A stretch of DNA of 12,233 nucleotides from Candidatus Methanoprimaticola hominis (GTDB taxonomy: Archaea > Thermoplasmatota > Thermoplasmata > Methanomassiliicoccales > Methanomethylophilaceae). Below are positions 1-12,233 of this stretch, one piece after another. Numbering within the stretch: the stretch's first letter is position 1; every line of letters begins with the position of its first letter. The notes below the pieces were generated by a model. It was not told where the DNA came from, made no database searches, and saw nothing but the letters and a program-made list of their open reading frames with translations. Location of the stretch: assembly GCA_006954465.1 (NCBI GenBank), contig LVVU01000067.1, forward strand, positions 1 through 12,233. Reading direction: 5' to 3'. The translations under genes were made by a program, and so were the position numbers.

Positions 1-237
1 GACTCTTTCGGTCTGTCCATATCGGTAATATCCAACGGTGGGATGGGATTCGGGAACTTCGGACCCACAGGGAACTTCACCGATCTGGAGTCCTCGCTGA
101 AGGCCATCCTCACGATCCTGATGTGGATCGGTCGTCTGGAGATCGTGACGGCGCTCATCCTCTTCACGCCCGGATTCTGGAAGGACGTATGGCTGAACAG
201 CCGCGCCCGCAGGAACGGGAAGAGGAGCAGATCCTGA
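1..237 (+). CDS. trkH: TrkH-type potassium uptake protein, C-terminal end (5' partial)
   Basis: The reading frame is open from the first base and ends at TGA 235-237, giving the last 78 residues of the protein. The segment has a GFGNFGPTGNF loop, followed by a hydrophobic helix containing GRLEIVTALILFTPGFW, and a short basic tail. This matches the last pore-loop and final membrane helices of TrkH/KtrB-type K+ transporters, where the GRLEI..LVLF.P.FW segment is the hallmark C-terminus. The protein would be the membrane translocating subunit that imports potassium with a TrkA/KtrA gating partner; no partner is visible because the gene starts outside the window. The frame has no CGA codon. It converges on the TPR gene, whose CGA ends at base 241, leaving a 3-base gap. 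Confidence 0.88.
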   Translation, partial: DSFGLSISVISNGGMGFGNFGPTGNFTDLESSLKAILTILMWIGRLEIVTALILFTPGFWKDVWLNSRARRNGKRSRS

Positions 238-240
238 TCC

Positions 241-1077
241 TCGGTGCCCTTCGCAGTACGTCAGGACGTTGAGCGCGGCACGGCTGCCGGGAGAAGCCTC
301 GTTGATGGCCCCGGCCACGATGCGCGCCTTGTCGTACTCGCCCTTCTGTGCGAGACAGATCCCCAGGGTCTCCATGGCGCTGACGTTCTTCGGATCGATC
401 TTCAGGGCACGGGAGGCGTATCCTGCGGCGGCCTTCGTGCTTCCGAAGATCCTCATGGCGTAGGCCGCCAGAGCATTGGCCTCGGCGGTCTTCTCCTTCA
501 GGCATCCCCTGACGTACTTGGATGCCTCCTTCTCCCTGCCTGCGAGCATCAGAGCCGATACGTACGCTCTGCGGACGTCGAAATCGCCCGGCATCTCGTC
601 GAGGAGGGACTTCGCGTTATCGATGGATCTGGAATGCTCGCCGAGGGCGCTGAGGACCTCGGACAGCATGACGCGATCGAACGGCGTGACGTCCTTGATG
701 GACTGAACGGCCTCCAGAGCCATCTCGTACTCGTCCATGTCCTCCAGGCACATGCATCTGAGCCTGAGGACGGGATCGGTGGATTCTATCCCCTTGAGGA
801 TCGTATAAGCGCTGGACGGATAGTCTAGACCCCTGAGGGAGCCGGCGATCTGGATCAGGAGCGATTCGTTCTCGGGGAGCTTCTCCATGAGGCTCCTCAG
901 GATCTCCTGGGAGGCCTCTCCGCCGTCGATGACCTTCAGAAGAGAGAGGCACTTGATCCTCACGATGGGGTCCTCGTCCGAGGCGGCAAGGTCCTTGACC
1001 CTGGCAATGGCCTCGTTCCCCATGCCTTTGGAAATCATCGTGCGAATCTCGTCGAAAGCGGCGTCCGTATCCATCAT
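241..1077 (-). CDS. TPR-repeat protein, ends at CGA
   Basis: Reading from ATG 1077 (a second ATG follows at once) gives a mostly alpha-helical, acidic protein. The first half has helical pairs of HEAT/TPR style, such as DPIVRIKCLSLLKVI near residue 40. Residues about 195-275 form clearer tetratricopeptide repeats, for example AAGYASRALKIDPKNVSAMETLG followed by AQKGEYDKA. Such proteins are scaffolds for protein-protein contacts; no partner can be named. There is no signal peptide or membrane segment. Standard code gives no stop: the frame runs through the whole antisense of trkH and off the window. The first in-frame CGA (forward tcg 241-243) falls after residue 278, right at the end of TPR-like sequence and 3 bases from the trkH stop. 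The end at 241 therefore depends on CGA being a stop. Confidence 0.75.
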
Positions 1078-1097
1078 ATCCCCGATGATGGACCCAC

Positions 1098-1105
1098 ATT
1101 AAATA
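1098..1105 (-). promoter_or_regulatory. TATA-like box for the TPR gene
   Basis: On the minus strand this reads TATTTAAT, centred about 24 bases before ATG 1077, the spacing expected for an archaeal TATA box driving a leaderless message. It lies in the 81-base divergent gap between the TPR and AAA ATPase genes. Confidence 0.45.
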
Positions 1106-1125
1106 CTGGATGGACGAAAGCCAGC

Positions 1126-1133
1126 CTTAATAC
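1126..1133 (+). promoter_or_regulatory. TATA-like box for the ATPase/DUF4435 pair
   Basis: CTTAATAC is centred about 29 bases before ATG 1159, as for an archaeal TATA box giving a very short leader. An AAGGT at 1148-1152 could also serve as a weak ribosome binding site, six bases before the start. The assignment is by spacing and composition only. Confidence 0.35.
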
Positions 1134-1158
1134 GGATGAAGGCGATTAAGGTCCGACC

Positions 1159-2199
1159 ATGAAGATCGACTCCGTGTACGTCTCCAGACTTTTCAACGAA
1201 TACGATTACGAGCTGGAGCTGTGCAAACCCCTCACGTTCATCCACTCCCCCAACGGGATGGGCAAGAGCACCCTGATGAGGATGATCTATGCCGCGCTCC
1301 GCGGCGATGTCCAGTATCTCAGCGAGACATGCTTCGAGCGCATGGACATCGGATTCGACGAAGGTTCGAATCTCATAATACAGAACTATCCCGGGAACCT
1401 CCTCGTCCAGATGCAGAGGAGCGAGATCGAGACCCCGCTGACGCCGGCGGAGATGGCTCAGATCTGCGACGTGGTCTACATCCCGCCCGAGAGGCTCGCC
1501 CTCAAGAGGGGCGACGGCCATCTGGCCCCCACTCTGGAGGTCTATGCGCAGGAGCTGCTCGAGACCATCAGGTACGCCAAGGAGCACAGGGAACTGGAGA
1601 TCGACCCGTCCGAGAAGGCCGGCGAGATGAGCGACGGCGAGCTGGAGTTCTGGTGCAAGGACCTCAAGGCCAAGCTGGATTTCATCAGGGATGCGGGTTT
1701 CGAACCCGATATACCTCCCGGAGCCAAGTTCCCTCCCTCCAGGTACGACATCGTCAAGGACCGTGCGGGATGCGAGGCCGTGGCCTGCTCCATAGCGCAC
1801 TACGTCGAGAGGAACTACCTCCTCGCCGAGTCCATAATCATCTTCAAGGACATCGTCAACGAGATCTTCATCGACAAGACCCTGCAGGTCTCCGAGACGG
1901 GCAAGGTCGGAATCAGGATGGACAACGGAACCGCCCTCCGCCTCCAGTCCCTGTCGTCGGGCGAGAAGCAGATCCTCATCATGTTCTACGCTCTCCTCTT
2001 CCATGCGCCCCAGGGCTCCGTCGTCATCATCGACGAGCCGGAGATCTCGCTCCATGTCGGATGGCAGCAGAAGCTCGGGGACTACTTCCTCGACATATGC
2101 AGGGTCAGGGACATCCAGATGATCGTCTCCACCCATTCCCCCCAGATCATCCATGACAAGTGGGACAGCGCAAGGGAGCTGAGGTCGACCGATGCGCGA
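1159..2199 (+). CDS. AAA/ABC-type ATPase, AriA-like (PARIS/OLD-type), ends at CGA
   Basis: The 346-residue ATPase has an ABC/SMC-type head: a Walker A loop HSPNGMGKST at residues 29-38, a signature LSSGEKQ at 265-271, a Walker B VVIIDEPE at 288-295 and a switch histidine in STHSP at 324-328. A charged, probably coiled region around residues 130-180 interrupts the head. This is the AAA_15/AAA_21 layout of OLD-family and AriA sensor ATPases. The next gene is a DUF4435/TOPRIM-like protein, so the pair resembles AriA-AriB of PARIS anti-phage immunity, in which the ATPase senses a phage trigger and releases the nuclease; the function here is inferred. With the standard code the frame would continue out of frame into the next gene to 2856. 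That extension is arginine-rich nonsense full of CGA. The first CGA, at 2197-2199, follows WDSARELRSTDA and overlaps the next start by eight bases. Confidence 0.8.
2181..2185 (+). promoter_or_regulatory. Ribosome binding site of the DUF4435 gene
   Basis: GAGGT lies six bases before ATG 2192, a good Shine-Dalgarno match at ideal spacing. It fixes the start of the second gene and argues that it is translated separately and not as a fusion with the ATPase. Confidence 0.6.
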
Positions 2200-3052
2200 T
2201 CTCCTGACCTACGACGACATCTGCAACGAGATATCGATGGAGCGCACCGTCTACGACGGGGCCTATCTGCTCGTGGAGGGCGTCACCGATTCGAGGATCT
2301 ACGGGAAGTTCCTGGACAGGCAATCGTCGAAGATACTGATAGCGCACTCCCGCGACAACGTGGAGCACGTGGTCAAGGAGATGAGCACACGTCGCAAGGA
2401 CCCGAAGGTCCTCGGGATAATCGACGCCGATCTCGACCTGCTGCGCGGGAAGACCGTGCGCTCCCCCCTGTTCTACACCGATTGCAGGGACATGGAGATG
2501 ATGGCCGTCAGATCGAACGCGCTCAACGACGTCATCGACGAGTACGGCGACACCGACAAGGTCCATCAGTTCGAGGAGAGATACGGCCCCGTCCGGGAGG
2601 CGCTGGTATCGGCCAGCTATCCCATCGGCCTCCTGATGTACATATCGCAGAACAGAGGGTACGGGCTCTGCTTCAAGAATCTGGATTTCAACCGCTTCAT
2701 CAATCCCCGCAGCCTCACCCTGGATGCCATGGACATGGTCTCCGAGGTCATGGACGGCTCGAAGAACGTCCGTATCGGCAGGAAGGGGCTGTACAAGGTC
2801 CTTCTGCAGGAGGCCGAGGGCCTGGACGACCTATGGAAGGCCGCCCGCGGCCATGATACGATCGATATCCTGCTCATCGGACTCAGGAACGGATTCGGGG
2901 CGTTCAACGCCCGCGAACTGGACTCCGGCTCCCTCAGCGGAGCCCTCAGGCTCGCATTCTCGGATGCCGATTTCGAATCCACCGACCTGTACAGGTCCAC
3001 GCAGGAATGGTCGGAATCGACCGGGGTGTCGCTGTGGCATCTCGAATCGCGA
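2192..3052 (+). CDS. DUF4435 (TOPRIM-like) protein, AriB-like, ends at CGA
   Basis: The protein has 286 residues. Its N-terminal half carries the DUF4435/TOPRIM-like signature: LLVEGVTDSRIYGKFL with Glu29 and Asp33, then GIIDADLD with Asp78 and Asp80, then FYTDCRDMEMM near residues 94-104. Glu plus DxD is the metal-binding pattern of TOPRIM nucleases. In PARIS, AriB is a DUF4435 protein held by the AriA ATPase and released to cleave host tRNA; that role here is inferred from family and pairing. The C-terminal half is helical and ends DLYRSTQEWSESTGVSLWHL plus a few residues. With the standard code the frame would run on to 3805, antisense through xseB and into xseA. The first in-frame CGA is at 3050-3052, directly abutting the CGA that ends xseB on the other strand. 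Confidence 0.8.
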
Positions 3053-3304
3053 TCGCTCCGATCCGAAGTCCTCGGTCCTGATGCCGTCTGCGGCCTCGAT
3101 GATCTTCTGGATGCGTCTCTGGCCGTCGTCCAGGATCGCCTTGCAGTGGTCTCTGAGAATGACAGCGCGCTCGTAGATCTCCAGGCTCCTGTCCAGATCG
3201 GTGCCTCCCTGCTCCAGCTCCTGGACGAGCTTCTCGAGCTCCTCCATGCTGGTCTCGAAGCTCATCTGGGCGACCTCTTCCGTGAATTTCTCCATATCAG
3301 TCAT
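3053..3304 (-). CDS. xseB: Exonuclease VII small subunit, ends at CGA
   Basis: The 83-residue protein is close to the roughly 80-residue norm for XseB. It is an acidic helical hairpin with the family pattern SFETSMEELEKLVQELEQG, then LDRSLEIYERAV, then LDDGQRRIQKII. XseB binds several copies per XseA subunit to make exonuclease VII, which degrades single-stranded DNA from either end into oligonucleotides. The start ATG overlaps the xseA stop as ATGA, so the two genes are translationally coupled. With the standard code the frame would continue to 157 residues, antisense to the DUF4435 gene, almost doubling a very size-constrained family. The first CGA (forward tcg 3053-3055) falls after TEDFGSE, exactly where a normal XseB would end, and a second CGA follows two codons later. 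Confidence 0.9.
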
Positions 3305-4752
3305 TTGAATTCCTCTATCTGCTTGACGGCCGCCTTGGCGGTTCCGTCCTTCAATCTTATATCAACGGTCTCTCCGACCAGCAGCGACTTGACCGAATCG
3401 ACGGTCCTGCCGTCCGGTGCCACGATGAATCCGTATCCTCTGTCGAGCACCGCGGTGGGATTCAGCGAATCGAGACGGGCCGATGCCCTGTCCAGGCGTG
3501 CCCTGCAGGTCTGCATGGCACCCCCTCCGGTCGTTCTTACCCTCATGAACGCCGAATCCAGCCTGTTTCCGCGGATGCCGATGTCCTTGAGGGCGGTATC
3601 GGGGGACAGGCGCGAGTACAGCGTATCCACCTTCGAGCGGCGGGATTCGATGTCGCGCAGTGCCGATGCCGGCGAGAGACGGGCCTCGACGACCCTGAAT
3701 CTCGAATCCATCGACCGGACGGTATCCGACAGCGCCCTGTCCGCACGGGACCACAGGTCGTCGACGCCCATGGACCTCATATCGATGTCCCTCAGGGCGC
3801 TCTGAGGCGAGAGCTTCGCATCGAGCACATCGAATCTGGACCTCATCCTCTCCACGACGGTTCCCAGCGCACGGTCGGCGTTGGCCATCTCCCTGTCGAT
3901 CTGGGTGCGGATCTCGTTCCTGTCGCGCAGGATGATCGCCGCCGCTCCGGTGGGGGTGGGCGCACGGACGTCGGCGACGAAGTCGGCGATGGTGAAATCG
4001 GTCTCGTGGCCGACTGCCGAGACGATCGGCGTGCGGCATTCCGCTATCGCTCTAGCGACGGATTCCTCGTTGAAGGGCCATAGGTCCTCGATCGAACCCC
4101 CTCCCCTGCCGACTATTATGACATCCACTCCGATCCTGTCGAGCAGATGGATCCCGGCGATGATCGTAGCCGCGGCAGCCTCCCCCTGCACCTGTGCCGG
4201 TGCGAGGAGGATGTCCGCGGGGAAGCGGGATGCGGACGTTGTGATTATATCGTGGATAACAGCGCCGGTCTCCGATGTCACGACGCCTATGGTCCGTGGA
4301 TACTTCGGCAGCGGTTTCTTGCGACCGACATCGAACAGCCCTTCGGCGCTGAGCTTCTTTTTCAGCTCCTCGAACCTCACGTAGAGGTCCCCGAGGCCGG
4401 ACTGGCGCATGGATTGGACGATGAACTGGTAGGAGCCTCTCTGGATGTAGATGTCGACTCCGCCGAAGACGGATACCTTCATGTTCTCCATGGGCTCGAA
4501 ATCGATCCTCGAACGGCTGCGGGCGAACATGGCGCATCTTATCTCGCTGCCCTCGTCCTTCAATGTGAAATAATAATGACCGGAGGATGCGCGGGTGAGA
4601 TTGGAGATTTCGCCGTTCACCCATATGTCGTTGAGTCCGGGGGACGACTGAAACATCCCTTTGACCCGTGTGTTCAGCTGGGTGACTGTCAGCGGAGCCT
4701 CCATGAGCGGGGTCAAGCCTTCCGGGTATTTCTTATGAAGGTGTCCATCCAC
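3301..4752 (-). CDS. xseA: Exonuclease VII large subunit
   Basis: This is the catalytic subunit of exonuclease VII: 483 residues against about 450 in bacteria. Residues about 20-115 are the OB-fold DNA-binding domain (LTVTQLNTRVKGMF, WVNGEISNLTRASSGHYYFTLKD). The nuclease domain follows, with GVVTSETGAVIHDI, VGRGGGSIEDLWPFNEE near residues 214-230 and GHETDFTIADFVADVRAPTP from residue 248. The C-terminal helical region contains three related motifs, SPQSALRDID (about 315), SPASALRDIE (about 360) and SPDTALKDIG (about 383), before the final RGYGFIV segment. It ends with TGA at 3301-3303, overlapping the xseB start. None of its roughly 40 arginine codons is CGA. The start at 4752 adds 16 residues before an internal Met (4704) that is the alternative start. 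exoVII is mainly bacterial, so an archaeal copy suggests old transfer. Confidence 0.93.
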   Translation of the reverse strand: MDGHLHKKYPEGLTPLMEAPLTVTQLNTRVKGMFQSSPGLNDIWVNGEISNLTRASSGHYYFTLKDEGSEIRCAMFARSRSRIDFEPMENMKVSVFGGVDIYIQRGSYQFIVQSMRQSGLGDLYVRFEELKKKLSAEGLFDVGRKKPLPKYPRTIGVVTSETGAVIHDIITTSASRFPADILLAPAQVQGEAAAATIIAGIHLLDRIGVDVIIVGRGGGSIEDLWPFNEESVARAIAECRTPIVSAVGHETDFTIADFVADVRAPTPTGAAAIILRDRNEIRTQIDREMANADRALGTVVERMRSRFDVLDAKLSPQSALRDIDMRSMGVDDLWSRADRALSDTVRSMDSRFRVVEARLSPASALRDIESRRSKVDTLYSRLSPDTALKDIGIRGNRLDSAFMRVRTTGGGAMQTCRARLDRASARLDSLNPTAVLDRGYGFIVAPDGRTVDSVKSLLVGETVDIRLKDGTAKAAVKQIEEFK

Positions 4753-4774
4753 ACATCGCGACTACGCAACACAC

Positions 4775-4784
4775 ATTTCTAAAT
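4775..4784. promoter_or_regulatory. Shared TATA-like box between xseAB and the thioesterase genes
   Basis: ATTTCTAAAT, an almost symmetric AT-rich block, is the only one in the 53-base divergent gap. It is centred about 26 bases before ATG 4806 on the plus strand and about 28 bases before ATG 4752 on the minus strand. Those spacings suit archaeal leaderless starts in both directions. Confidence 0.45.
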
Positions 4785-4805
4785 CTGAAGCGGTGATGCG
4801 GGAGC

Positions 4806-5246
4806 ATGGACAGGGAAGGCGTATCCGCCCGCATGTCTGAGGATGTCCGCGGTCTCATCGACAACGTCATGCCGATGTACGAGGCCCCGTTCGCCCGTTA
4901 TATAGGATTGGAGATCGAATCCATAGAGGCTGATCGCGTCGAATGCTCGATGGAGCTCACCCCTGAGCTGCTCAACAGCATGGGAAGGGGCCACGGAGGC
5001 GCGATATACTCCCTCATGGACCATACCTTCGCCATCGCAGGCAACATGTCCCGTCCCTGCACGGGGCAGTCGTCGACCATCTCGTTCTATCGTCCCGCCG
5101 AAGGGAGGATAAGGGCCGTCTGCGTCCCCATAAACAGGTCCAGATCCCTGGAGGTCTACGATGTCAGAGCCTACGCGGAGAACGGCAAGCTCCTGGCCTC
5201 CGGAACGTTCACCGCATTCGTCCTGAGGAGCGATAGAGATGCCTGA
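4806..5246 (+). CDS. PaaI-type hotdog thioesterase
   Basis: The 146-residue protein is the usual length for a single hotdog (4HBT/PaaI) domain. The hallmark stretch is SMGRGHGGAIYSLMDHTFAIA near residues 59-79, equivalent to the G.(V/T)HGG.....D motif that binds the CoA thioester and places the catalytic acidic residue. It is followed by the beta strands TISFYRPA, IRAVCVPINRSRSLEVYDVRAYAENGKLLASGTFTAFVL. Family members hydrolyse acyl- or aryl-CoA thioesters in the cytoplasm; the substrate cannot be read from sequence. It ends in TGA 5244-5246 and overlaps the next gene, which starts at 5239, by eight bases. No good ribosome site precedes ATG 4806, and the TATA-like box 26 bases upstream suggests a leaderless transcript. 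It has no CGA codons. Confidence 0.85.
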   Translation: MDREGVSARMSEDVRGLIDNVMPMYEAPFARYIGLEIESIEADRVECSMELTPELLNSMGRGHGGAIYSLMDHTFAIAGNMSRPCTGQSSTISFYRPAEGRIRAVCVPINRSRSLEVYDVRAYAENGKLLASGTFTAFVLRSDRDA

Positions 5247-5664
5247 AAGACGCTGCCCCTACTGCAACGAGCTCGTGCCCTCCAACAGTCTGACCTGCCC
5301 CAAGTGCTACAAGAAGATCCCCGTTGAGCCCGAGCCCGCGCCGAAATACGATCAAGGCACCCGCAAGGAACCCTCCAAGGATCAGAAGAAGCTGAAGAGG
5401 GCCATCGCCCTGGACGCCGTCATAGGGTTGTTCGGGCTGCTCGGGATAGGTCAGCTCTATCTCGGAAGCAGGCGCGGGGCTGCATTCCTGCTGATCGGAC
5501 TCGTGTTCTTCCTACCGGCCGCCGTTCTGGCGTTCATCGTCCCCTTCGTATCGACGTTCTTCGCCATCCCTCTGTTCGTGATCTACGCGCTGCTCTACCT
5601 GGCGGCATTGGCGGATCTCGTTCTGGGTTCGGTGGTGTTCCGTTTCGGACCCGGATCGCGCTAA
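5239..5664 (+). CDS. Zinc-ribbon protein with TM2-like membrane segments
   Basis: The 141-residue protein starts with a zinc ribbon, CPYC at residues 6-9 and CPKC at 20-23, then a charged linker rich in Pro, Lys and Glu. The second half is membrane-embedded: LDAVIGLFGLLGIGQLYLG followed by a short basic turn and two or three further hydrophobic helices (FLLIGLVFFLPAAVLAFIV, FFAIPLFVIYALLYLAALADLVLG). The G.GQLYLG motif is typical of TM2-domain proteins. Zinc-ribbon plus TM2-like small proteins are common in archaea and have no settled function. It is translationally coupled to the thioesterase by overlap, with GGAG about nine bases before ATG. It ends in TAA at 5662-5664, the only TAA stop in the window, and overlaps the CGA end of the convergent gene by nine bases. 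Confidence 0.8.
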   Translation: MPERRCPYCNELVPSNSLTCPKCYKKIPVEPEPAPKYDQGTRKEPSKDQKKLKRAIALDAVIGLFGLLGIGQLYLGSRRGAAFLLIGLVFFLPAAVLAFIVPFVSTFFAIPLFVIYALLYLAALADLVLGSVVFRFGPGSR

Positions 5665-6252
5665 TCCGTTCCTTCTCAGCGTCGCGAAGACCGATGCCGC
5701 CATCTGCGCCAGATGGATCGCCCTGCGGCCGTCTCCGACCATCGCCGGATCCCCGGGGCAGATAGCATCGTAAGCCGACCTGATGAGGGCATGCTCCATC
5801 TCCGGAGGCCCCTTGAGCTCCGGGGGGAGCCTTACGGATATCGAAGGGAGGACCGTGAGATTGCGGGCGCAATCCCATGGCTCGAAGCTCAGATACTTCC
5901 CTAACACGTTCCCCACGTTGTATGCGGTGCATTCCTTGCCGAAGATCGTCCCCTGGACATCCGAAGCGACACGCGATATGTCGCTTCCCACGTAGAGGTC
6001 CTCGGGAACGATGCCGTAGTTCCCCTCCATGTAATCCAACGGATCCTTCCCCAGGTCCTTGGGATCCAAGGCGATGCCGTCGTTGTAGACGGTCTCGAAG
6101 TCGGAACCGTCCGACACGACCCTGCAGACCGCGATCTCGGCGACCGTGTCCTTCGGATAACCGGACGGGCCGGTGGTCGCCAGCTCCACCACGTAGACAT
6201 CATCCATACCAAGAGGATGCTCGGACGGGTATACGGCATTTTTCCAAAGCAT
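5656..6252 (-). CDS. Degenerate DEDD/DnaQ-fold exonuclease-like protein, ends at CGA
   Basis: The 198-residue protein resembles the DnaQ/RNase T exonuclease fold. A first strand, VYVVELATTG (residues 19-28), stands where active members have ID.ETTG. It is followed by VAEIAVCRVV, a stretch like the variable loop (FETVYNDGIALDP), then GIVPEDLYVGSDISRVASDVQGTIFGKECTAYNVGNVLGKYL, matching the 'gi..edl......v......l.....aHN..FD..fL' part. The metal ligands look lost: Asp-x-Glu is Glu-x-Ala, and the HN..FD segment is YNVGNVL. It is therefore probably catalytically inactive, perhaps binding or regulatory. The start at 6252 has a TATA-like box 25 bases upstream; Met16 (6207) is an alternative. With the standard code it would run to 5512, antisense to the zinc-ribbon gene, with an arginine/glutamate-rich nonsense tail. 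The first CGA (forward tcg 5656-5658) follows FATLRRNGLA. Confidence 0.65.
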
Positions 6253-6273
6253 TACAAAGATAACAGCCAGGAG

Positions 6274-6281
6274 TTAAAGTA
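6274..6281 (-). promoter_or_regulatory. TATA-like box for the DEDD-like gene, perhaps shared
   Basis: The minus strand reads ACTTTAAC... centred about 25 bases before ATG 6252, fitting a leaderless archaeal start. The same block read on the plus strand (TTAAAGTA) lies about 45 bases before ATG 6322 and could drive the addB-like operon with a short leader. Confidence 0.4.
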
Positions 6282-6307
6282 CTCTCTCGGCATCCTCCAT
6301 CCGAGAT

Positions 6308-6314
6308 AGGAAGG
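6308..6314 (+). promoter_or_regulatory. Ribosome binding site of the addB-like gene
   Basis: AGGAAGG ends seven bases before ATG 6322, a strong Shine-Dalgarno sequence that supports this start. Confidence 0.6.
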
Positions 6315-6321
6315 CGATTGC

Positions 6322-8964
6322 ATGAGGGCGGTCAAGAGCATAGACGAACTGTACGATGAGGTGAAGGACTACGGGTTGGTCATAACGAATGATATCGCTT
6401 TGGAGACGGCGTTGAACGCCCGTATCGACCAGCCGCGCATAGGGGTCCTCGCCATGACTCCCCGGCAACTCGGTCCGATGATCCTCGGAGAGGGCTTCAT
6501 GACCGACCTCCAGCTCATCTCGAAGGTGTCCGAGGAGACCGGATACGGCTTCCGTCATGTCTACAGCGAGATCCTCAACTTCAGACAGATAAGATCCTAC
6601 ACGAAGGAGGTCAGGGACTATCTGACTTCCAGGAGTTCCAAGGAGATCTACAGGTCCTATCGCGCTCTTCCGACCCTCGAGAAGGCCATGGATGAATTCG
6701 AACCCGACGACCCCCGCGTCTCATGGTTCTTCGATAAGAAGGGAGGCGTAGCCATCATCGGAGTCGATCTCTTCGATCAGCTGGACAAGTGCTGCACGCC
6801 GGCGGAATGCGACCTCATCGACATCTTCAAGGATGGGGAGTACGAATTGGATGCCATCCACGAGATCGGGAACGACCGTCAGCTCGCGGAGAACGCCGTC
6901 GACCTCATAGATGAGAACGATCCAAACTCGTATGCCATCGTTCTCAGCGCCTCCGAACCGATAGCCGATTCCGTCCGCGCGGCACTGTATCGCAGGAACC
7001 TGCCGTTCATAAACAGTCTGACAGTATCGGATCTGGCCCAGATCAGGGATTTCCTGAGCTTCGTCACCCTGGCCCAATCCTACCATACGTTGAGGGTGAA
7101 GGCGGTCAAGGAGCTCTTCTCGAACTACAACGGATTCTTCAGCCCCAAACGCGAGGAGTATCTGCTGGAAAGACAAGGTCCTGAGGACATGCGCGAGCAC
7201 GCCATGGTCCTCAAGGACGTCATGCGCAGGATCTCCGATGAAGGGATGACCTTCGCCGATGTCAAGGATGTGATCTGCAACAAGCAGGCCCGTCCGCAGG
7301 TGACCATGGTCCTCGACGAGCTCGGCATGCTCGACGAGATCGTTACACCGGACAGGATATCGGAGATCAGGTTCGCCATCGAGAACGTTCCCGAGCTGAA
7401 ACACAACGAGCAGATCCCGGAGAACGAGCTCCACGGCGTCCTGATAGCCGACTGCAAGAACTCCATGTTCATCGACAGACCTGTTGTGATCTATCTCGGA
7501 ATGGAGCAGGATTGGAACATCCCCATCATCGGAAAGCGCTACATAGATTCGGAAACGGAGTCGGAATGCATCGCCTCTCGTCTCGAAGCGATGATACAAC
7601 AGGGTCAGAGACGCATCTACTGCGTCAACTCAAGCAAGATGGGTAAGCCCGCCCGCCCCTGTCTGACCTTCGATATCATAAGAGGTTCCGCTACGGAGAG
7701 CTTCAGAGACCTCTGCTCCAGATACGTGGTCGGAAGATGGTACTCGCCGGAGATTCCAAGAGAGGTCGAGAGGGGGTCCCTCGAGGATGCAACAGAATTG
7801 CAGTTCGAAGAGTTCTCCAAGTCCTCGTTCAATGCGTACATCGCCTGCCCTCGTAAGTTCATGTTCAACAACCTGCTTCCCAATGCGGATAACGACAAAT
7901 CCGAATTCGGAAACCTCATCCATCAGTTCGCAGAGCTGTACGCGACCCATCCCGACAGGGTCAGAGAGCTCGGATTGGATGCCTTCACGACGATGATCTC
8001 GGACAGATTCGTCGGTCTCTCCACGCCGCTCAAATCCGAACTTGATACAGACAAGATCCGTCTCGCGATGCGCAATGTGATGAGATACATCGACGCCATG
8101 GGCGTCGAACCGATGCTGGATGCATCCAATACCGCCAAGAAGGAGCCGAACAGGTTCCTGATCGAACTGGGCGAGGAGATGACCAGCACATGCTGCGAGA
8201 CCGATCACCACTCGTCGCTCCATCCGATGCATGGGATCTACGACCTCTACTGGAACGGAGTCATCACCGATTACAAGACCGGCAGGCCATCCGACATCAA
8301 GTCGATCCGGAAGAACATGTCCCTGGAGGAGATCACCGAATATCCCGAGTATCAGCCGCTGATGTATCTCGCATTATCCATGGAGGAAGGCGATGGGAGG
8401 ATGGTCTTCAATCAGTTGTACGCCATGGACAACGAGATCTCCTCTCTCCAGGATGATTTCGATATCACCGATAACGTCAGGACGATAACGGTCGTTCAGA
8501 TGGCCGCATTCGAGTATCTTCTGAGAACCGATGAGGGAACGGACTGGATCGAGAACAACCTGAAGAAGGAATTGAAAGGGAATGCGAGAGCCATCGCAGA
8601 AGCCCTCGATTCCTATCAATGCAGGGATCCGAGGAAATGGATCGATGATGAAGGCCTCCATTCCGCCGTCCTCAGGAAGATCGGTATGAAGGACAACAAG
8701 ACGAACAGAGGACATGTGGCGTCCATCGTCAAGAAGATCGCCGATGCGCTGACTACCGACGGGATCGTCATAGGGAACAGTCTCATCGTATCGCTTGCAG
8801 AGATCGACGGATTCCTGAAGATCCTCGATCAGAAGCATATCGAGTTGAATGCCAGCATCGACACGTGTCTCCCAGCACGGCCTGCAGGCAAGGTCGATTG
8901 TAAAAAATGCGATTTCTACGCCGCCTGCATGGGCAGCAAGGTCAAGGTCGAGGAGGATGAGTGA
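6322..8964 (+). CDS. AddB-like subunit: inactive helicase domain plus Fe-S PD-(D/E)XK nuclease
   Basis: The 880-residue protein has no Walker A loop. Its N-terminal two thirds look like a helicase fold without ATPase motifs, with late helicase-like elements such as VVIYLGMEQDWNIP near residue 390 and a segment like motif VI around 420-435. The C-terminal third is a RecB-family nuclease: His534 in GNLIHQFAELY, Asp641, the core Asp650 and Lys652 in ITDYKTG, and Gln678 in EYQPLMY. Cys509 (YIACPRKF) plus Cys860, Cys863 and Cys869 (C-x2-C-x5-C) reproduce the split iron-sulfur motif of AddB and related Cas4-like nucleases. In AddAB this subunit scans for a recombination hotspot and cuts one strand while the partner unwinds a double-strand end. 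It is smaller than bacterial AddB (about 1150 residues). It ends in TGA immediately before the next ATG and has no CGA codon. Confidence 0.82.
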   Translation: MRAVKSIDELYDEVKDYGLVITNDIALETALNARIDQPRIGVLAMTPRQLGPMILGEGFMTDLQLISKVSEETGYGFRHVYSEILNFRQIRSYTKEVRDYLTSRSSKEIYRSYRALPTLEKAMDEFEPDDPRVSWFFDKKGGVAIIGVDLFDQLDKCCTPAECDLIDIFKDGEYELDAIHEIGNDRQLAENAVDLIDENDPNSYAIVLSASEPIADSVRAALYRRNLPFINSLTVSDLAQIRDFLSFVTLAQSYHTLRVKAVKELFSNYNGFFSPKREEYLLERQGPEDMREHAMVLKDVMRRISDEGMTFADVKDVICNKQARPQVTMVLDELGMLDEIVTPDRISEIRFAIENVPELKHNEQIPENELHGVLIADCKNSMFIDRPVVIYLGMEQDWNIPIIGKRYIDSETESECIASRLEAMIQQGQRRIYCVNSSKMGKPARPCLTFDIIRGSATESFRDLCSRYVVGRWYSPEIPREVERGSLEDATELQFEEFSKSSFNAYIACPRKFMFNNLLPNADNDKSEFGNLIHQFAELYATHPDRVRELGLDAFTTMISDRFVGLSTPLKSELDTDKIRLAMRNVMRYIDAMGVEPMLDASNTAKKEPNRFLIELGEEMTSTCCETDHHSSLHPMHGIYDLYWNGVITDYKTGRPSDIKSIRKNMSLEEITEYPEYQPLMYLALSMEEGDGRMVFNQLYAMDNEISSLQDDFDITDNVRTITVVQMAAFEYLLRTDEGTDWIENNLKKELKGNARAIAEALDSYQCRDPRKWIDDEGLHSAVLRKIGMKDNKTNRGHVASIVKKIADALTTDGIVIGNSLIVSLAEIDGFLKILDQKHIELNASIDTCLPARPAGKVDCKKCDFYAACMGSKVKVEEDE
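8951..8956 (+). promoter_or_regulatory. Ribosome binding site of the addA-like gene
   Basis: AGGAGG lies inside the 3' end of the addB-like gene, eight bases before ATG 8965. The two genes abut (TGA then ATG), so coupled translation is likely. Confidence 0.6.
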
Positions 8965-11901
8965 ATGAGCGAACTCAACGCATCTCAACAGAGGATGATC
9001 GATACCCTCGAGGGGATGGTCGTCGTAGATGCCGGTCCCGGTACGGGAAAGACCCATACGATCGTGGAGAGGTATGTGAAACTCCTCGGGAAGGAGGACG
9101 TCAACCCCAGGGACATCCTGATGATGACCTTCACCAGGAACGCCGCCTCGGAGATGGAGCAGCGCATCAAGGCCCGCCTGAGGTCCGTTCCCGGAATGGA
9201 GGAGAAGTCCAAGCTGGTGCAGGTGAAGACGTTCGATGCCTTCTGCCTCTCGGTTGTCATGGATTCCCCCGAGGATGCCGGAGCGCTCTTCGGGATCCAG
9301 GACAAGCTCACCCATTCGGCGAGACTGGTTGAGAACGAGACCCTCAACAAGAGGCATTTCTCGCTGTTCCTCGACGACTTCCTTCACAGCCATGGTGAGG
9401 ACTACGGCGATTGGTCGATCATCGGAGGCGAGTATCCCGACGACCTCTACCAGATAATCAACCGCCTGATGTCCCGCGGGATATATCCGATCAAGGGGAG
9501 CGGATGGTTCGGAAACGATCCGGTCGATATCCTGTCCGGGGATGTCGACTCCGTGCTCGGATCGATGAGGGAACTCAACAAATTCGTGAAGAAGGGCAGC
9601 AGCAAGAGGTCCTACATCTCTTCCAGATATTACGAGATGGGCACGAAGGATTTCGATGTCGAGAGGGATCCCGAATCCGTCGAGGAGCTGCCGGATCCCA
9701 TTCTGAAGGAAGCGGCCTTCGACGACCGTTCGGAATTCTTCAGATTCATCCACGATGTGTATTGGCACTACCTCAGGAGGAGCATATCGGAGGACAGGCT
9801 GACATTCTGCATAAACGCCATGCTTGCATTCTCGATCCTGTATTCCAACGACAACGTCCGCAAGATCAATTCGTACCATTATGTGATGATAGACGAATTC
9901 CAGGATACAAACTCGAGCCAGCTGATGCTCTCGCTCCTGGTGTTGAAGGAACCCAACCTCTGCGTCGTCGGAGACTGGAAGCAAGGGATCTACGGATTCA
10001 GATTCGTTTCCATCGACAACATCCTGGATTTCGATAGAAGAGCCAAGCTCCTCGCCGACAAACTGAACGAGGACAGAGGGGACGGCAACAGGCGTGTCGC
10101 ATTCAGGATCCCTGAAACCGTGAAGATCCAATTGGACACCAACTACAGGTCTTCCGAGAAGATCGTGAACAAGGCCTTCGAGTGCATGACCCTCAAAGCC
10201 ACTGCAAAAGAGAAGATCGACACCGAGGCGATCGAATCCAATCTCGCCTATCTGACCGCGAAACGCCAGAAGGAGATCGGGAACCGGACCCACATCAGGT
10301 ACGTCAGATGCGAATCCTCCGTCGAGGAAGCCCGCACGGTAGGCAGATGCGTCAGGGATTATCTGCAACCCGGAAAATATCCGGTGGTCGACAAGAACGT
10401 CGAACGTCCCATGAGACTCGGAGATATCGCCGTCCTATGCCGTACGACCAGCGGTTGCAGGGCGGTCGTCGACGAACTGACTTCTCAGGGCATCCCCGCC
10501 TATCTCTACGGCGAGGTCGAGCTGATGTGCACAAGGGAGGCGAAGCTCGTTCTGGCATGGCTCAGATACATCAACAACTCCTTCGACCCCTGGGGATACA
10601 TCCCCATAATGATCGATCAGGGCTACTCGCTGGCGGAATGCAATGCTGCACGCCTGGACAACAGCAAGATCCCCTCGGACATCTCCGGGCAGAGGAGGGA
10701 GCTCTATGCCAAGAGGCGCAGGATAACCGAGCTCCTGACCAACATCTTCGTCTGGTACGGCATAGACAACGATGTCTCCCAGTCCGTCATCAACGTGCTC
10801 TCCGGAGCGCATCGCGATTCGTTGCTCACCATCTCGGACCTCATCTCGATGATAGAGGAGGATATGGAGGGCAAACCCACCACGTACCCGGTGGAGACCG
10901 ATCTGACATCCGATGCGGTCGCCGTCATGAGCATGCACAAGTCCAAAGGACTGGAGTTCCCCACGGTGATAATGCCGTTCATCGATCCAAGGATAATGCC
11001 GAACACCAACGGCGACAGATCCGCATTCCTCTACGACGAGGTCCTGGGCCTTCGTCCGAAGAACGTGGTGGCCTACTACAACGGGTACTCCCGCATCTGC
11101 AAATCCTGGCGCACCTACCTGTGCAAATCGATCAGATCCTCGGATTACGACGAGGAACGTCGCCTGATGTTCGTATCCATGACCCGCGCCAAGCAGTACG
11201 AGACGCTGATAAGCGGTCCGGAACCCTCGGAATTCATGAAGGGACTCTCTAAGGAGAACTATTCGGAGATAGAGGACTGCCCGCTATCCGCCGAGTTCTC
11301 CGAGTTCGAGACGATACAGAAACCGGAGATAGGCGCGTACGTCAACAGAACGCAGACGATCGGTGTCCACAGCATCATGAGCCTCGACCTGGAGGACGGC
11401 CAGGGCGGTATGGCCGAGGTCGATGAGATCTGCGGAAAGGGCAAGGAGTACGGTACCTCCGTGCACCTGGAGGCCCAGCTCATGCACGTCGGCGTAGCCC
11501 CCTCCGGGAAGTATCCGGAAACGGACTACATCGCAGGAGAGGTGCTGTCGAGAAGAAGCATGGACGGATTCCTCAAATCGTATTCGGAGATAGGCTGCTC
11601 TCTTCCCGTATGCAGCGGCACCACCATACTGAAGGGTCAGATCGACCTCCTGATGGTATTCGACGACCGCGTGGAGATCCACGACTACAAGACCGATGTC
11701 ACGGACAGGTTCCAGGCGGAATACGAATTGCAGCTGTCCGTATATGCGCACGCTGCGGAGGAGTACTACACCGGCCTTCCGGTCAGATGCTTCATAGACT
11801 ACGTCTCGCAAGGCCGTACGGTGGAATTCGAGCCCCTTTCGATGGAGGACATCGATAAGAGGGTCGCGGAATCGGAAGCACGGAGATTACAGCTACGTCG
11901 A
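8965..11901 (+). CDS. AddA-like UvrD/Rep-family helicase with C-terminal nuclease, ends at CGA
   Basis: The 978-residue protein is an SF1A helicase: Walker A GPGTGKT at 24-30, FTRNAAS near 57, Walker B DEFQDTN from Asp310, VGDWKQGIYGFR with Gln340, TNYRSSEKI near 393, SMHKSKGLEFPTV from 656 and RRLMFVSMTRAK with Arg741. A PD-(D/E)XK nuclease follows: His834 in TSVHLEAQ, Asp894 in GQIDLLMVF, Asp907 and Lys909 in HDYKTD, and Gln923 in ELQLSVYAH. This is the AddA (RecB-type) order, so with the upstream gene it should form a helicase-nuclease that processes broken DNA ends for recombination and may degrade phage DNA. Standard code carries it to TGA 12007-12009, adding 36 residues (TRSQHYTGP...) unlike the nuclease family. 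The first in-frame CGA is at 11899-11901, with another two codons later. The final residues could also have been altered by a mobile element downstream. Confidence 0.85.
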
Positions 11902-12056
11902 ACACGAAGTCAGCACTACACTGGACCGAGGTCGCTTTCGACCCGATTTCTGATGGATATCGACGCTGATCCGAGTTTTAGAACGATCTCTTGCTCCGAA
12001 CCGCTCTGAAACGGCACCATTCGACTGGTATGTGTTGCTATAGGGGAGCTGATGGG
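11902..12056 (+). other. Intergenic region after the addA-like gene
   Basis: If the helicase gene ends at CGA 11901, these 155 bases are non-coding. I see no tRNA, no clear hairpin terminator and no inverted repeat that I can pair by eye. The stretch holds two further CGA triplets in the helicase frame (11905-11907 and 11944-11946), the standard-code TGA at 12007-12009, and a weak TA-rich segment around 12028-12042 that could be the promoter of the next gene. Confidence 0.4.
12043..12048 (+). promoter_or_regulatory. Ribosome binding site of the final partial gene
   Basis: GGGGAG lies eight bases before ATG 12057. The nearer ATG at 12052 is in a frame that stops after ten codons, so 12057 is the better start. 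Confidence 0.5.
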
Positions 12057-12233
12057 ATGCCGTGGATCAGGATACAGGGACTGAAGAAGGATGATGCAGG
12101 CCGTATAACGGCAGGTACCGCAACCATAGTCGACACCGAGTACGTGCAGAGCACCAAAGGTGCGAAACAGCACTCGAAGCAGATAACGAGGGAGAAGCTC
12201 GGAAGACCTCTGGCCCTGGCCGCGGACAGACGC
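12057..12233 (+). CDS. Start of an unrecognised protein (3' partial), perhaps a transposase
   Basis: Fifty-nine codons are visible, open to the window end, beginning MPWIRIQGLKKDDAG and continuing with a short beta-rich stretch (TATIVDTEYV) and a basic helix with REKLGRPL. I do not recognise the family with confidence. The opening has a vague look of archaeal IS1634/IS4-type transposase N-termini, which often carry a REKLG segment, but the DDE residues would lie beyond the window, so this is only a suggestion. Codon choice resembles the rest of the window, and there is no CGA codon in the visible part. Confidence 0.5.
   Translation, partial: MPWIRIQGLKKDDAGRITAGTATIVDTEYVQSTKGAKQHSKQITREKLGRPLALAADRR

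Follow-up and report, generated by a model that had tools for sequence, protein, structure and literature searches.

In a 12,233-nt stretch of DNA that is likely from an uncultured archaeon (hereafter the window), the codon CGA is likely read as a stop rather than as arginine, a reading to which we assign a probability of about 80%. CGA occupies positions at which the corresponding genes of relatives also end, and it is absent from the interior of the genes of the window; these two observations together make it a likely stop codon. Somewhat less firmly, we consider it probable that in a broad, family-level archaeal group related to Methanomassiliicoccales, CGA has gone from being an arginine codon to being the main stop. 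Such a change from sense to stop would be without precedent in a cellular genome, as would a well-supported stop codon beginning with C; this codon would be read by an archaeal release factor (aRF1) that accepts C at position 1 once tRNA-Arg(UCG) had been lost.

Genes of the window

Eleven genes were placed on the window (Table 1). Ten of them had been listed in a preliminary description of the sequence and were recovered here; that list had left out the eleventh, the C-terminal part of trkH. The trkH and TPR genes converge, the CGA of the latter lying three bases beyond the trkH TGA, and the CGA of xseB and that of ariB adjoin back to back (CGA followed directly by TCG). The ariA gene overlaps the start of ariB by 8 bases, and its AAA_21 match stops at residue 331. 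In PARIS defence systems, an AriA-type ATPase is found beside an AriB-type DUF4435 protein; the adjacent, overlapping pair in the window has this arrangement, judging from the two PADLOC matches. The protein encoded at 5239..5664 gave a weak match to DZR_2 (7.8e-4), below the curated cut-off, and its membrane and TM2 labels are assumptions taken from the look of the sequence. No Pfam, NCBIfam or PADLOC family matched the DEDD-position protein at E 0.01, so its DEDD label is that of the preliminary description; the true ATG of this gene is probably at 6207, as the natural length of its relatives is 183 residues.

Table 1. Genes of the window, their ends and the matches on which their names are based
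Gene or product	Coordinates	Strand	End	Matches and other features
trkH C-terminus	1..237	+	TGA 235-237	NCBIfam TrkH PRK10750.1 E=2.1e-8, profile 430-483 of 483
TPR-repeat protein, 278 aa	241..1077	-	CGA 243-241	Pfam TPR_19 1.6e-15
ariA, AriA-like AAA ATPase, 346 aa	1159..2199	+	CGA 2197-2199	PADLOC AriA 1.4e-27
ariB, AriB-like DUF4435 protein, 286 aa	2192..3052	+	CGA 3050-3052	PADLOC AriB 2.3e-15, DUF4435 1.1e-8
xseB, 83 aa	3053..3304	-	CGA 3055-3053	Exonuc_VII_S 1.8e-15, residues 16-67
xseA	3301..4752	-	TGA	Exonuc_VII_L 2.2e-93; in-frame CGA 0 in 484 codons
Hotdog thioesterase-like protein	4806..5246	+	TGA	DUF4442/4HBT; in-frame CGA 0
Zinc-ribbon protein, presumed membrane protein ('TM2')	5239..5664	+	TAA	in-frame CGA 0
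DEDD-position protein, 198 aa as listed	5656..6252	-	CGA 5658-5656	76 homologues
addB-like PD-(D/E)XK nuclease	6322..8964	+	TGA	PDDEXK_1 3.1e-9; in-frame CGA 0 in 881 codons
addA-like UvrD helicase-nuclease, 978 aa	8965..11901	+	CGA 11899-11901	UvrD-helicase 6.4e-47

No tRNA gene was found within the 12,233 nt, and an Rfam search of the window gave nothing at gathering scores. A promoter and terminator scan of 11800-12233 also found nothing, with models of bacterial type applied to a host that is likely archaeal.

CGA at gene ends and within genes

The six CGA triplets that the preliminary description had placed at gene ends are all present there, and no in-frame CGA precedes any of them in its open reading frame (ORF). 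The stops of the eleven genes are thus CGA in six cases, TGA in four and TAA in one. Within the gene bodies of the window, CGA accounts for 0 of 277 arginine codons and 0 of 3,897 codons overall. An earlier count by hand of about 280 arginine codons was close to these figures (271 in ten ORFs and 277 with the trkH end, with no CGA in either set). CGA is the only one of the 61 sense codons with a zero count; other codons are also very rare in the bodies, including TTT (1), TCA (2) and CGG (9). Because this strong general codon bias leaves TTT and TCA nearly absent as well, the zero for CGA is no proof by itself, and its absence from genes was dropped as a sole argument. In the other five frames of the same bodies, CGA makes up 2.1, 7.4, 2.5, 0.4 and 6.5% of triplets. 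CAA (13) and CAG (83) are still used within genes, so that CGA alone, and not all C-first relatives of the stop codons, would mean stop.

The lateness of CGA within the ORFs of the window is also pronounced, with z=5.5, the highest among codons with at least 8 occurrences; the runner-up is CGG (z=4.5), and both values are high because the two codons fall largely in the tails beyond the first CGA. With automatically chosen ORFs, the value for CGA is 4.65. The controls were 81 other loci, bacterial or viral, and the maximum CGA lateness among the 71 that had enough CGA codons is 2.4. In control loci with a GC content of at least 50% (n=28), CGA never falls below 4.7% of arginine codons. Some ciliates use dual-use stop codons, as described in PMC4967479; internal CGA being zero in the window, nothing here points to a stop of this context-dependent kind.

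Sequence beyond each CGA

The preliminary description had regarded the reading beyond each CGA as shadow sequence of a neighbouring gene. This holds for five genes, in which the tail is antisense to or out of frame with its neighbour, and not for addA, whose tail runs into the stretch 3' of the gene. The tails of the TPR, ariA, ariB, xseB and DEDD-position genes overlap trkH, ariB, xseB/xseA, ariB and the presumed membrane-protein gene, respectively. The mean codon score is lower in the tail than in the body in all six genes, most clearly in TPR (0.59 in the body and -0.24 in the tail, which is antisense to trkH), ariA (0.73 versus -0.69), xseB and addA. Some of the codon signature persists in the ariB and DEDD-position tails (0.11 and 0.14). 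In ariB, the 30 codons on each side of the CGA show no drop in score (0.45 and 0.45), and the reading of CGA as a stop is held slightly less firmly because of this. The shortening of xseB to a family-like size, noted in the preliminary description, is borne out: the 83 residues that end at the CGA contain its Pfam domain.

Relatives at the position of CGA

The ends of homologous proteins were compared for two of the six CGA-ended genes, those for the DEDD-position protein and AddA. Of the 76 DEDD-position homologues, 43 have no C-terminal tail and 31 have one. All but one of the tail-less proteins (42/43) terminate exactly at the column of the CGA in the window, and arginine is the first residue after this column in 30 of the 31 tail-bearing proteins, the exception being P0275 with glycine; arginine makes up 11.2% of the remaining tail residues. 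The tails of at least 30 residues (n=23, 253 pairs) have a median identity of 0.10, compared to 0.64 for the bodies. The tail-less relatives would carry ordinary stops at this place, and the boundary arginine of the tail-bearing ones would be encoded by CGA too, as extrapolated from the window, the one place where the DNA itself was read. On a quick and partly unsure tree of the family, stop and arginine interchange with at least 12 switches, 4 of them forced by starred branches. The two labels are clustered on this tree, so the 30 arginine cases are not 30 independent events. The same read-through is found in two relatives of 97% identity, P0001 and P0241, which stand for 108 and 170 member sequences, and this excludes an isolated sequencing error. 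The interchange of stop and arginine suggests that CGA acts as a synonym of TGA and TAA across a broad group related to Methanomassiliicoccales.

In the AddA family, the relatives P0002-P0004 (72–75% identity) are 978–985 residues long. Long tails occur in 4 of the 120 homologues listed (P0001, P0013, P0017 and P0086). The CGA of the window corresponds to residue 33 after the Y of the motif DYVS, and arginine is found at residues 34, 35 and 34 in P0013, P0017 and P0086, respectively; the other 116 listed homologues end 23–56 residues after this Y. There is no fixed column at this boundary, and the agreement is a rough one. Alignment of homologues to the gene end, the strongest test here and one that could have gone against the proposal, therefore supports the reading of CGA as a stop that the preliminary description had put forward, exactly in the DEDD-position family and roughly for AddA.

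Other similarity searches were less informative. A search with AddA of genome contigs gave 11 loci, all in bacterial records at 23–42% identity and uninformative on the code. No relative was confirmed in viral contigs with AddA, AriA, AriB, XseA, the DEDD-family alignment or a 59-residue fragment of the ORF at 12051 as queries; the 70 loci obtained there with the AddA alignment, with best segments of 19–47% identity, served as controls only. A tblastn search of plasmids with AriA gave 68 records, all below 60% identity, and the ten listed are bacterial.

A proposed route from arginine to stop

The predicted mechanism combines absence of tRNA-Arg(UCG) with an aRF1 that accepts CGA. First, CGA would have grown rare in a GC-rich genome (57.6%). 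Second, tRNA-Arg(UCG), the archaeal reader of CGA, would have disappeared; anticodons GCG and CCG would still serve CGT/CGC and CGG, and the remainder would fall to the AGA/AGG tRNAs. Third, aRF1, the single archaeal release factor, which already terminates at UGA, would come to accept CGA, with C in place of U at position 1, there being no tRNA left to compete for the codon. From then on, one T-to-C transition could convert a TGA stop into CGA, and CGA would become the commonest stop, as it is in the window.

A precedent is reported in PMC6755126: termination at rare sense codons is promoted by eRF1 in extracts of Neurospora, where substitution with CGA yielded a truncated intermediate. Among the 120 aRF1 proteins listed of 7,996, which are 403–437 residues long and of which none is known to come from the group of the window, the NIKS motif is intact in 120/120 and no read-through tail is recognisable; those with organism names are mostly from Methanomassiliicoccales, Thermoplasmata or Euryarchaeota. 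In the one bacterial genome searched, no eRF1 domain was found (0/1).

Alternative explanations

The lack of internal CGA would also fit an unassigned codon, read by no tRNA, at which the stalled ribosome is freed by rescue rather than by recognition through aRF1. In archaea, stalled ribosomes are rescued by aPelota with ABCE1. We regard this explanation as unlikely: CGA is the commonest stop in the window (6/11) and, if the boundary arginine is CGA, is found at gene ends in many relatives, which suggests efficient peptide release, whereas rescue by stalling is costly. A comparable case, cited in PMC8629427, is Mycoplasma capricolum, in which CGG was called unassigned or nonsense.

Slightly less probable still is C-to-U RNA editing, in which genomic CGA would become UGA in the mRNA and an ordinary release factor would terminate there. 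One base change is enough to restore TGA, and the present data cannot tell editing from true decoding. In a plant mitochondrion, atp9 and ccmFc have a genomic CGA at the gene end that is potentially edited to UGA (PMC12389370). However, the six sites in the window share no long context, CGA must still be missing inside genes or be edited selectively, and a general editor specific for CGA would be required for arginine and stop to alternate at a single position among relatives. To our knowledge, no archaeal mRNA editing of this kind has been described.

It is very improbable that the standard code applies and that the stops were lost, the tails being real protein. Under table 11 the tails contain no stop, and homologue databases list them as protein, but this explanation would require joint stop loss in 6 of 11 genes; we rejected it on the antisense or out-of-frame tails of five of the six genes, the dissimilar tails of relatives and the arginine with which these tails begin, exactly at the residue where 42 of 43 tail-less relatives end. 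An immediate frameshift at CGA into a normal stop, a mechanism discussed for AGA/AGG in human mitochondria (PMC4472662), has next to no probability, since shifting by -1 (CCG, GCG, GCG, GCG, GCG, TCG) or +1 (GAG, GAT, GAT, GAT, GAT, GAA) yields TAA, TAG or TGA at 0 of 6 sites.

Implications

If CGA is indeed a stop in these archaea, a cellular lineage would show how, on the scale of a full genome, a codon can be emptied and then taken over by termination. Natural variants would make it possible to test how specific the release factors of archaea and eukaryotes are for U at position 1. Many deposited proteins of these archaea would bear false C-terminal tails, and the change would have been overlooked because gene callers read through CGA and code-prediction software assigns amino acids only.

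Comparison with known codes

The preliminary description knew of no code in which CGA is a stop, and this stands: 0 of the 27 NCBI tables (Biopython) list it, and their only stops other than TAA, TAG and TGA are AGA/AGG (table 2), TCA (table 22) and TTA (table 23). No report of CGA as a prokaryotic stop was found among the titles and abstract openings listed from the open-licence PMC literature, preprints excluded, where the most targeted search brought up the plant mitochondrial case above, put down to possible editing; other papers may exist. As far as found, sense-to-stop switches have been reported only for organelles.

In green-algal mitochondria, UCA and UCG or UUA and UUG serve as stops, with codon loss and a release-factor change proposed (PMC6821328, PMC12574857). 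As here, a sense codon stands at gene ends, and in the mitochondria no cognate tRNA was found; unlike these few-gene genomes with their bacterial-type mtRF1a and U-first stops, the window belongs to a likely archaeal genome, the codon is C-first and the release factor is, by descent, of eRF1 type. In peDinoflagellate plastids, UUA and UCA end more than half of the genes in two species and the matching tRNAs are missing; PMC12574857 calls these codes the first sense-to-stop case outside mitochondria. There too, homologue C-termini mark the new stop site, but the codons are U-first and a change in RF2 is proposed, while here the host is a prokaryote and the codon CGA. In human mitochondria (NCBI table 2), AGA and AGG, which have no cognate tRNA, stand at the ends of MTCO1 and MTND6 only (PMC4472662). 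These are likewise arginine codons at gene ends, with frameshift or ICT1 proposed; in the window, six of eleven genes are concerned and no immediate frameshift is possible.

Among bacteria, CGA and CGG have been reassigned to Trp in Absconditabacteria and CGG in other bacteria, after the codons had become rare and, in three clades, with the tRNA of anticodon UCG lost (PMC8629427). The same codon box would have changed here, but in those low-GC genomes CGA gains an amino acid, whereas in this genome of 57.6% GC it would become a stop. The Codetta screen of that study chooses among 20 amino acids, and because of this limit a sense-to-stop change could escape it. Finally, Methanomassiliicoccales decode amber (TAG) as pyrrolysine (PMC4153887, in the main text of which CGA does not occur). 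These archaea are of the same order as the host of the window, judged from homologue names, and they too have a stop-codon anomaly; unlike the change proposed here, that of TAG goes from stop to sense, in the opposite direction.

Gene ends in the window

The eleven genes read in the window (57.6% GC over 12,233 bases) end at CGA (6 of 11), TGA (4 of 11) or TAA (1 of 11), and all six CGA triplets named in the preliminary description were found in place.

Genes and other features of the window. Codon scores were trained on the other genes; body, part before the CGA; tail, protein stretch read beyond it if CGA is taken as arginine.
Feature	Position (strand); CGA for genes	Stop	Codon score, body to tail	Tail
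trkH, C-terminal end		TGA		
TPR protein	243-241 (-)	CGA	0.59 to -0.24	antisense to trkH C-terminus; trkH TGA three bases away
AriA-like ATPase	2197-2199 (+)	CGA	0.73 to -0.69	660 bases, overlying AriB out of frame
AriB-like DUF4435 protein	3050-3052 (+)	CGA	0.66 to 0.11	antisense to xseB and xseA
xseB	3055-3053 (-)	CGA	0.78 to 0.17	antisense to AriB
xseA		TGA		
Thioesterase-like protein		TGA		
Zinc-ribbon protein, membrane-bound by appearance		TAA		
DEDD-position protein, 183-198 aa, without known family	5658-5656 (-)	CGA	0.35 to 0.14	antisense to zinc-ribbon gene
addB-like		TGA		
addA-like	11899-11901 (+)	CGA	0.54 to -0.35	36 codons, into region ahead of next ORF
ariA-ariB pair	1159-3052			
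Abutting ariB and xseB stops	3047-3058			
ORF downstream of addA	12051-12233			

The ATPase and DUF4435 genes, which overlap by 8 bases, form an AriA/AriB-like pair predicted to act in PARIS anti-phage defence. In TCGCGATCG, the CGA stop of ariB directly adjoins that of xseB, tail to tail, so that a single short sequence terminates both convergent genes. TC directly follows four of the six CGAs, the trkH TGA and the one TAA stop, possibly as a context preference at gene ends. The ORF downstream of addA runs past the window end; we take it to resemble a transposase, and it had no NCBIfam match.

CGA inside genes and beyond their ends

That CGA ends translation is strongly supported: by its position, by homologue boundaries and by most tails having lost the coding signature. 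The gene bodies comprise 3,897 codons, including 277 for arginine (AGG 108, CGC 71, AGA 57, CGT 32, CGG 9, CGA 0), which agrees with the absence of CGA noted earlier among about 280. Every other sense codon occurs at least once, but the zero for CGA is by itself a weak argument because TTT (1) and TCA (2) are nearly absent too. As also described before, CGA is abundant in other frames, the five other frames of the bodies holding 0.4 to 7.4%. Its share of arginine codons is never below 4.7% in the 28 control loci with a GC content of 50% or more. CAA (13) and CAG (83) are still used as glutamine, and the change is therefore CGA-specific. The scarcity of CGG would be consistent with a lost UCG anticodon that read both CGA and CGG.

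CGA lies late within ORFs (z=5.5; 4.65 with automatically picked ORFs). Among 81 other loci, bacterial or viral, the largest z was 2.4 in the 71 with at least eight CGA codons, ten having too few. CGG is also late in the window (z=4.5), since most of its occurrences likewise fall in tails.

The codon score of the tail is below that of the body in all six genes. Within 30 codons on each side of the CGA, the drop is clear in TPR, ariA, xseB and addA and small in the DEDD-position gene (0.23 to 0.11); ariB, whose tail is antisense of another gene, has none (0.45 and 0.45). The earlier claim that the reading beyond each CGA becomes the shadow of a neighbour holds for five genes but not for addA.

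Homologues

The DEDD-position search, which took only candidates of up to 346 aa and would miss longer read-throughs, gave 76 homologues among 231 candidates, all of which were aligned; fragments P0306 and P0316 were left out of the residue count, and these and P0307 out of the tree. The commonest length is 183 aa, and the 198 aa in the window are due to an upstream ATG. Alignment to the gene end, one part of the check proposed earlier, places the boundary at the window's CGA column: 42 of 43 tail-less homologues end there (P0268 two residues earlier), and the first tail residue is R in 30 of 31 tail-bearing ones (tails of 7-169 residues), R making up 11.2% of the 2,396 residues in the rest of the tails. 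The exception, P0275, has G; GGA would be one change away from TGA. S is commonest at the second tail residue (16 of 31), and the commonest residue at the fifth has just 5. Median pairwise identity of the 23 tails of at least 30 residues is 0.10, versus 0.64 for their bodies (253 pairs). In these alignments the boundary behaves as a synonymous stop codon would: it alternates with an ordinary end at one fixed residue, and the sequence that follows is free.

A quick tree built from 74 rows (R in 30, window included; stop in 43) requires at least 12 changes between R and stop, 4 of them forced by starred branches; the tree is unsure in parts (long branches of P0308, P0309 and others), and the label is clustered. 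The distant P0308 and P0310 (about 45% identity) also bear R-tails, although proteins closely related to P0310 have normal ends; either the trait may be older, or the R in these two may be encoded by a codon other than CGA.

Searching with the 978-residue addA body gave 1,090 proteins among 7,997 scored candidates, and the best 120 were examined. P0001 (97% identity; 1,014 aa) has the same read-through as the window, and P0002, P0003 and P0004 (72-75%) have 980, 978 and 985 aa. In the window, the CGA is the 33rd codon past the tyrosine (Y) of the DYVS motif. P0013, P0017 and P0086 bear long tails resembling nonsense sequence, with R at residues 34, 35 and 34 past that Y; the other 116 of the 120 matches listed end 23-56 residues past it. 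Since the natural end varies, this family is supporting, not decisive. P0005, P0006 and P0021 run 43-46 residues past the tyrosine, with R at 34, 34 and 35, and may be short CGA read-throughs closed by a chance stop.

The minority of relatives of both proteins that bear an organism name belong to Thermoplasmata, Methanomethylophilaceae, Methanomassiliicoccaceae or Methanoplasma archaea, which makes an uncultured archaeon near Methanomassiliicoccales the most likely source of the window. Several addA and DEDD-position homologues match in the length of their longest contig and thus probably come in pairs from one organism. One such pair, picked out by eye, includes an R-tail: P0021 (addA, 46 residues past Y) and the R-tailed DEDD-position homologue P0260, with longest contigs of 23,686 bases each. 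Pairs such as P0004/P0242 (83,556 bases) and P0016/P0267 (161,892 bases) have a tail in neither protein and are uninformative on their code.

Possible mechanism and alternatives

The molecular mechanism of a CGA stop is a prediction: the CGA-reading tRNA would be lost, and aRF1 would accept CGA as a stop. In Neurospora extracts, eRF1 competes with tRNA and promotes termination at rare sense codons, and a truncated intermediate appeared after a CGA substitution (PMC6755126); it is therefore plausible that, in an eRF1/aRF1 system, a CGA codon once empty could become a stop. Among the best 120 of 7,996 aRF1 proteins (403-437 aa), NIKS is intact in all 120, and none is assignable to the window's group. 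C-to-U editing of CGA to UGA is a possible alternative, as is rescue at an unassigned CGA codon. Immediate frameshifting at CGA was ruled out at all six sites.

Comparison with known codes

The preliminary description knew of no code with a CGA stop, and none of the 27 NCBI tables lists one; among the papers listed in searches of open-licence literature, none describes a prokaryotic CGA stop. Stop codons are discussed in a comparison, published in 2014, of three genomes of Methanomassiliicoccales, whose main text does not mention CGA (PMC4153887). Sense-to-stop changes have been described in green-algal mitochondria (PMC6821328) and in plastids, the latter termed the first outside mitochondria (PMC12574857). 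For Absconditabacteria, a method whose possible outcomes are all amino acids predicts that CGA and CGG have been reassigned to tryptophan (PMC8629427); there CGA would gain an amino acid, whereas in the window it stands at gene ends.
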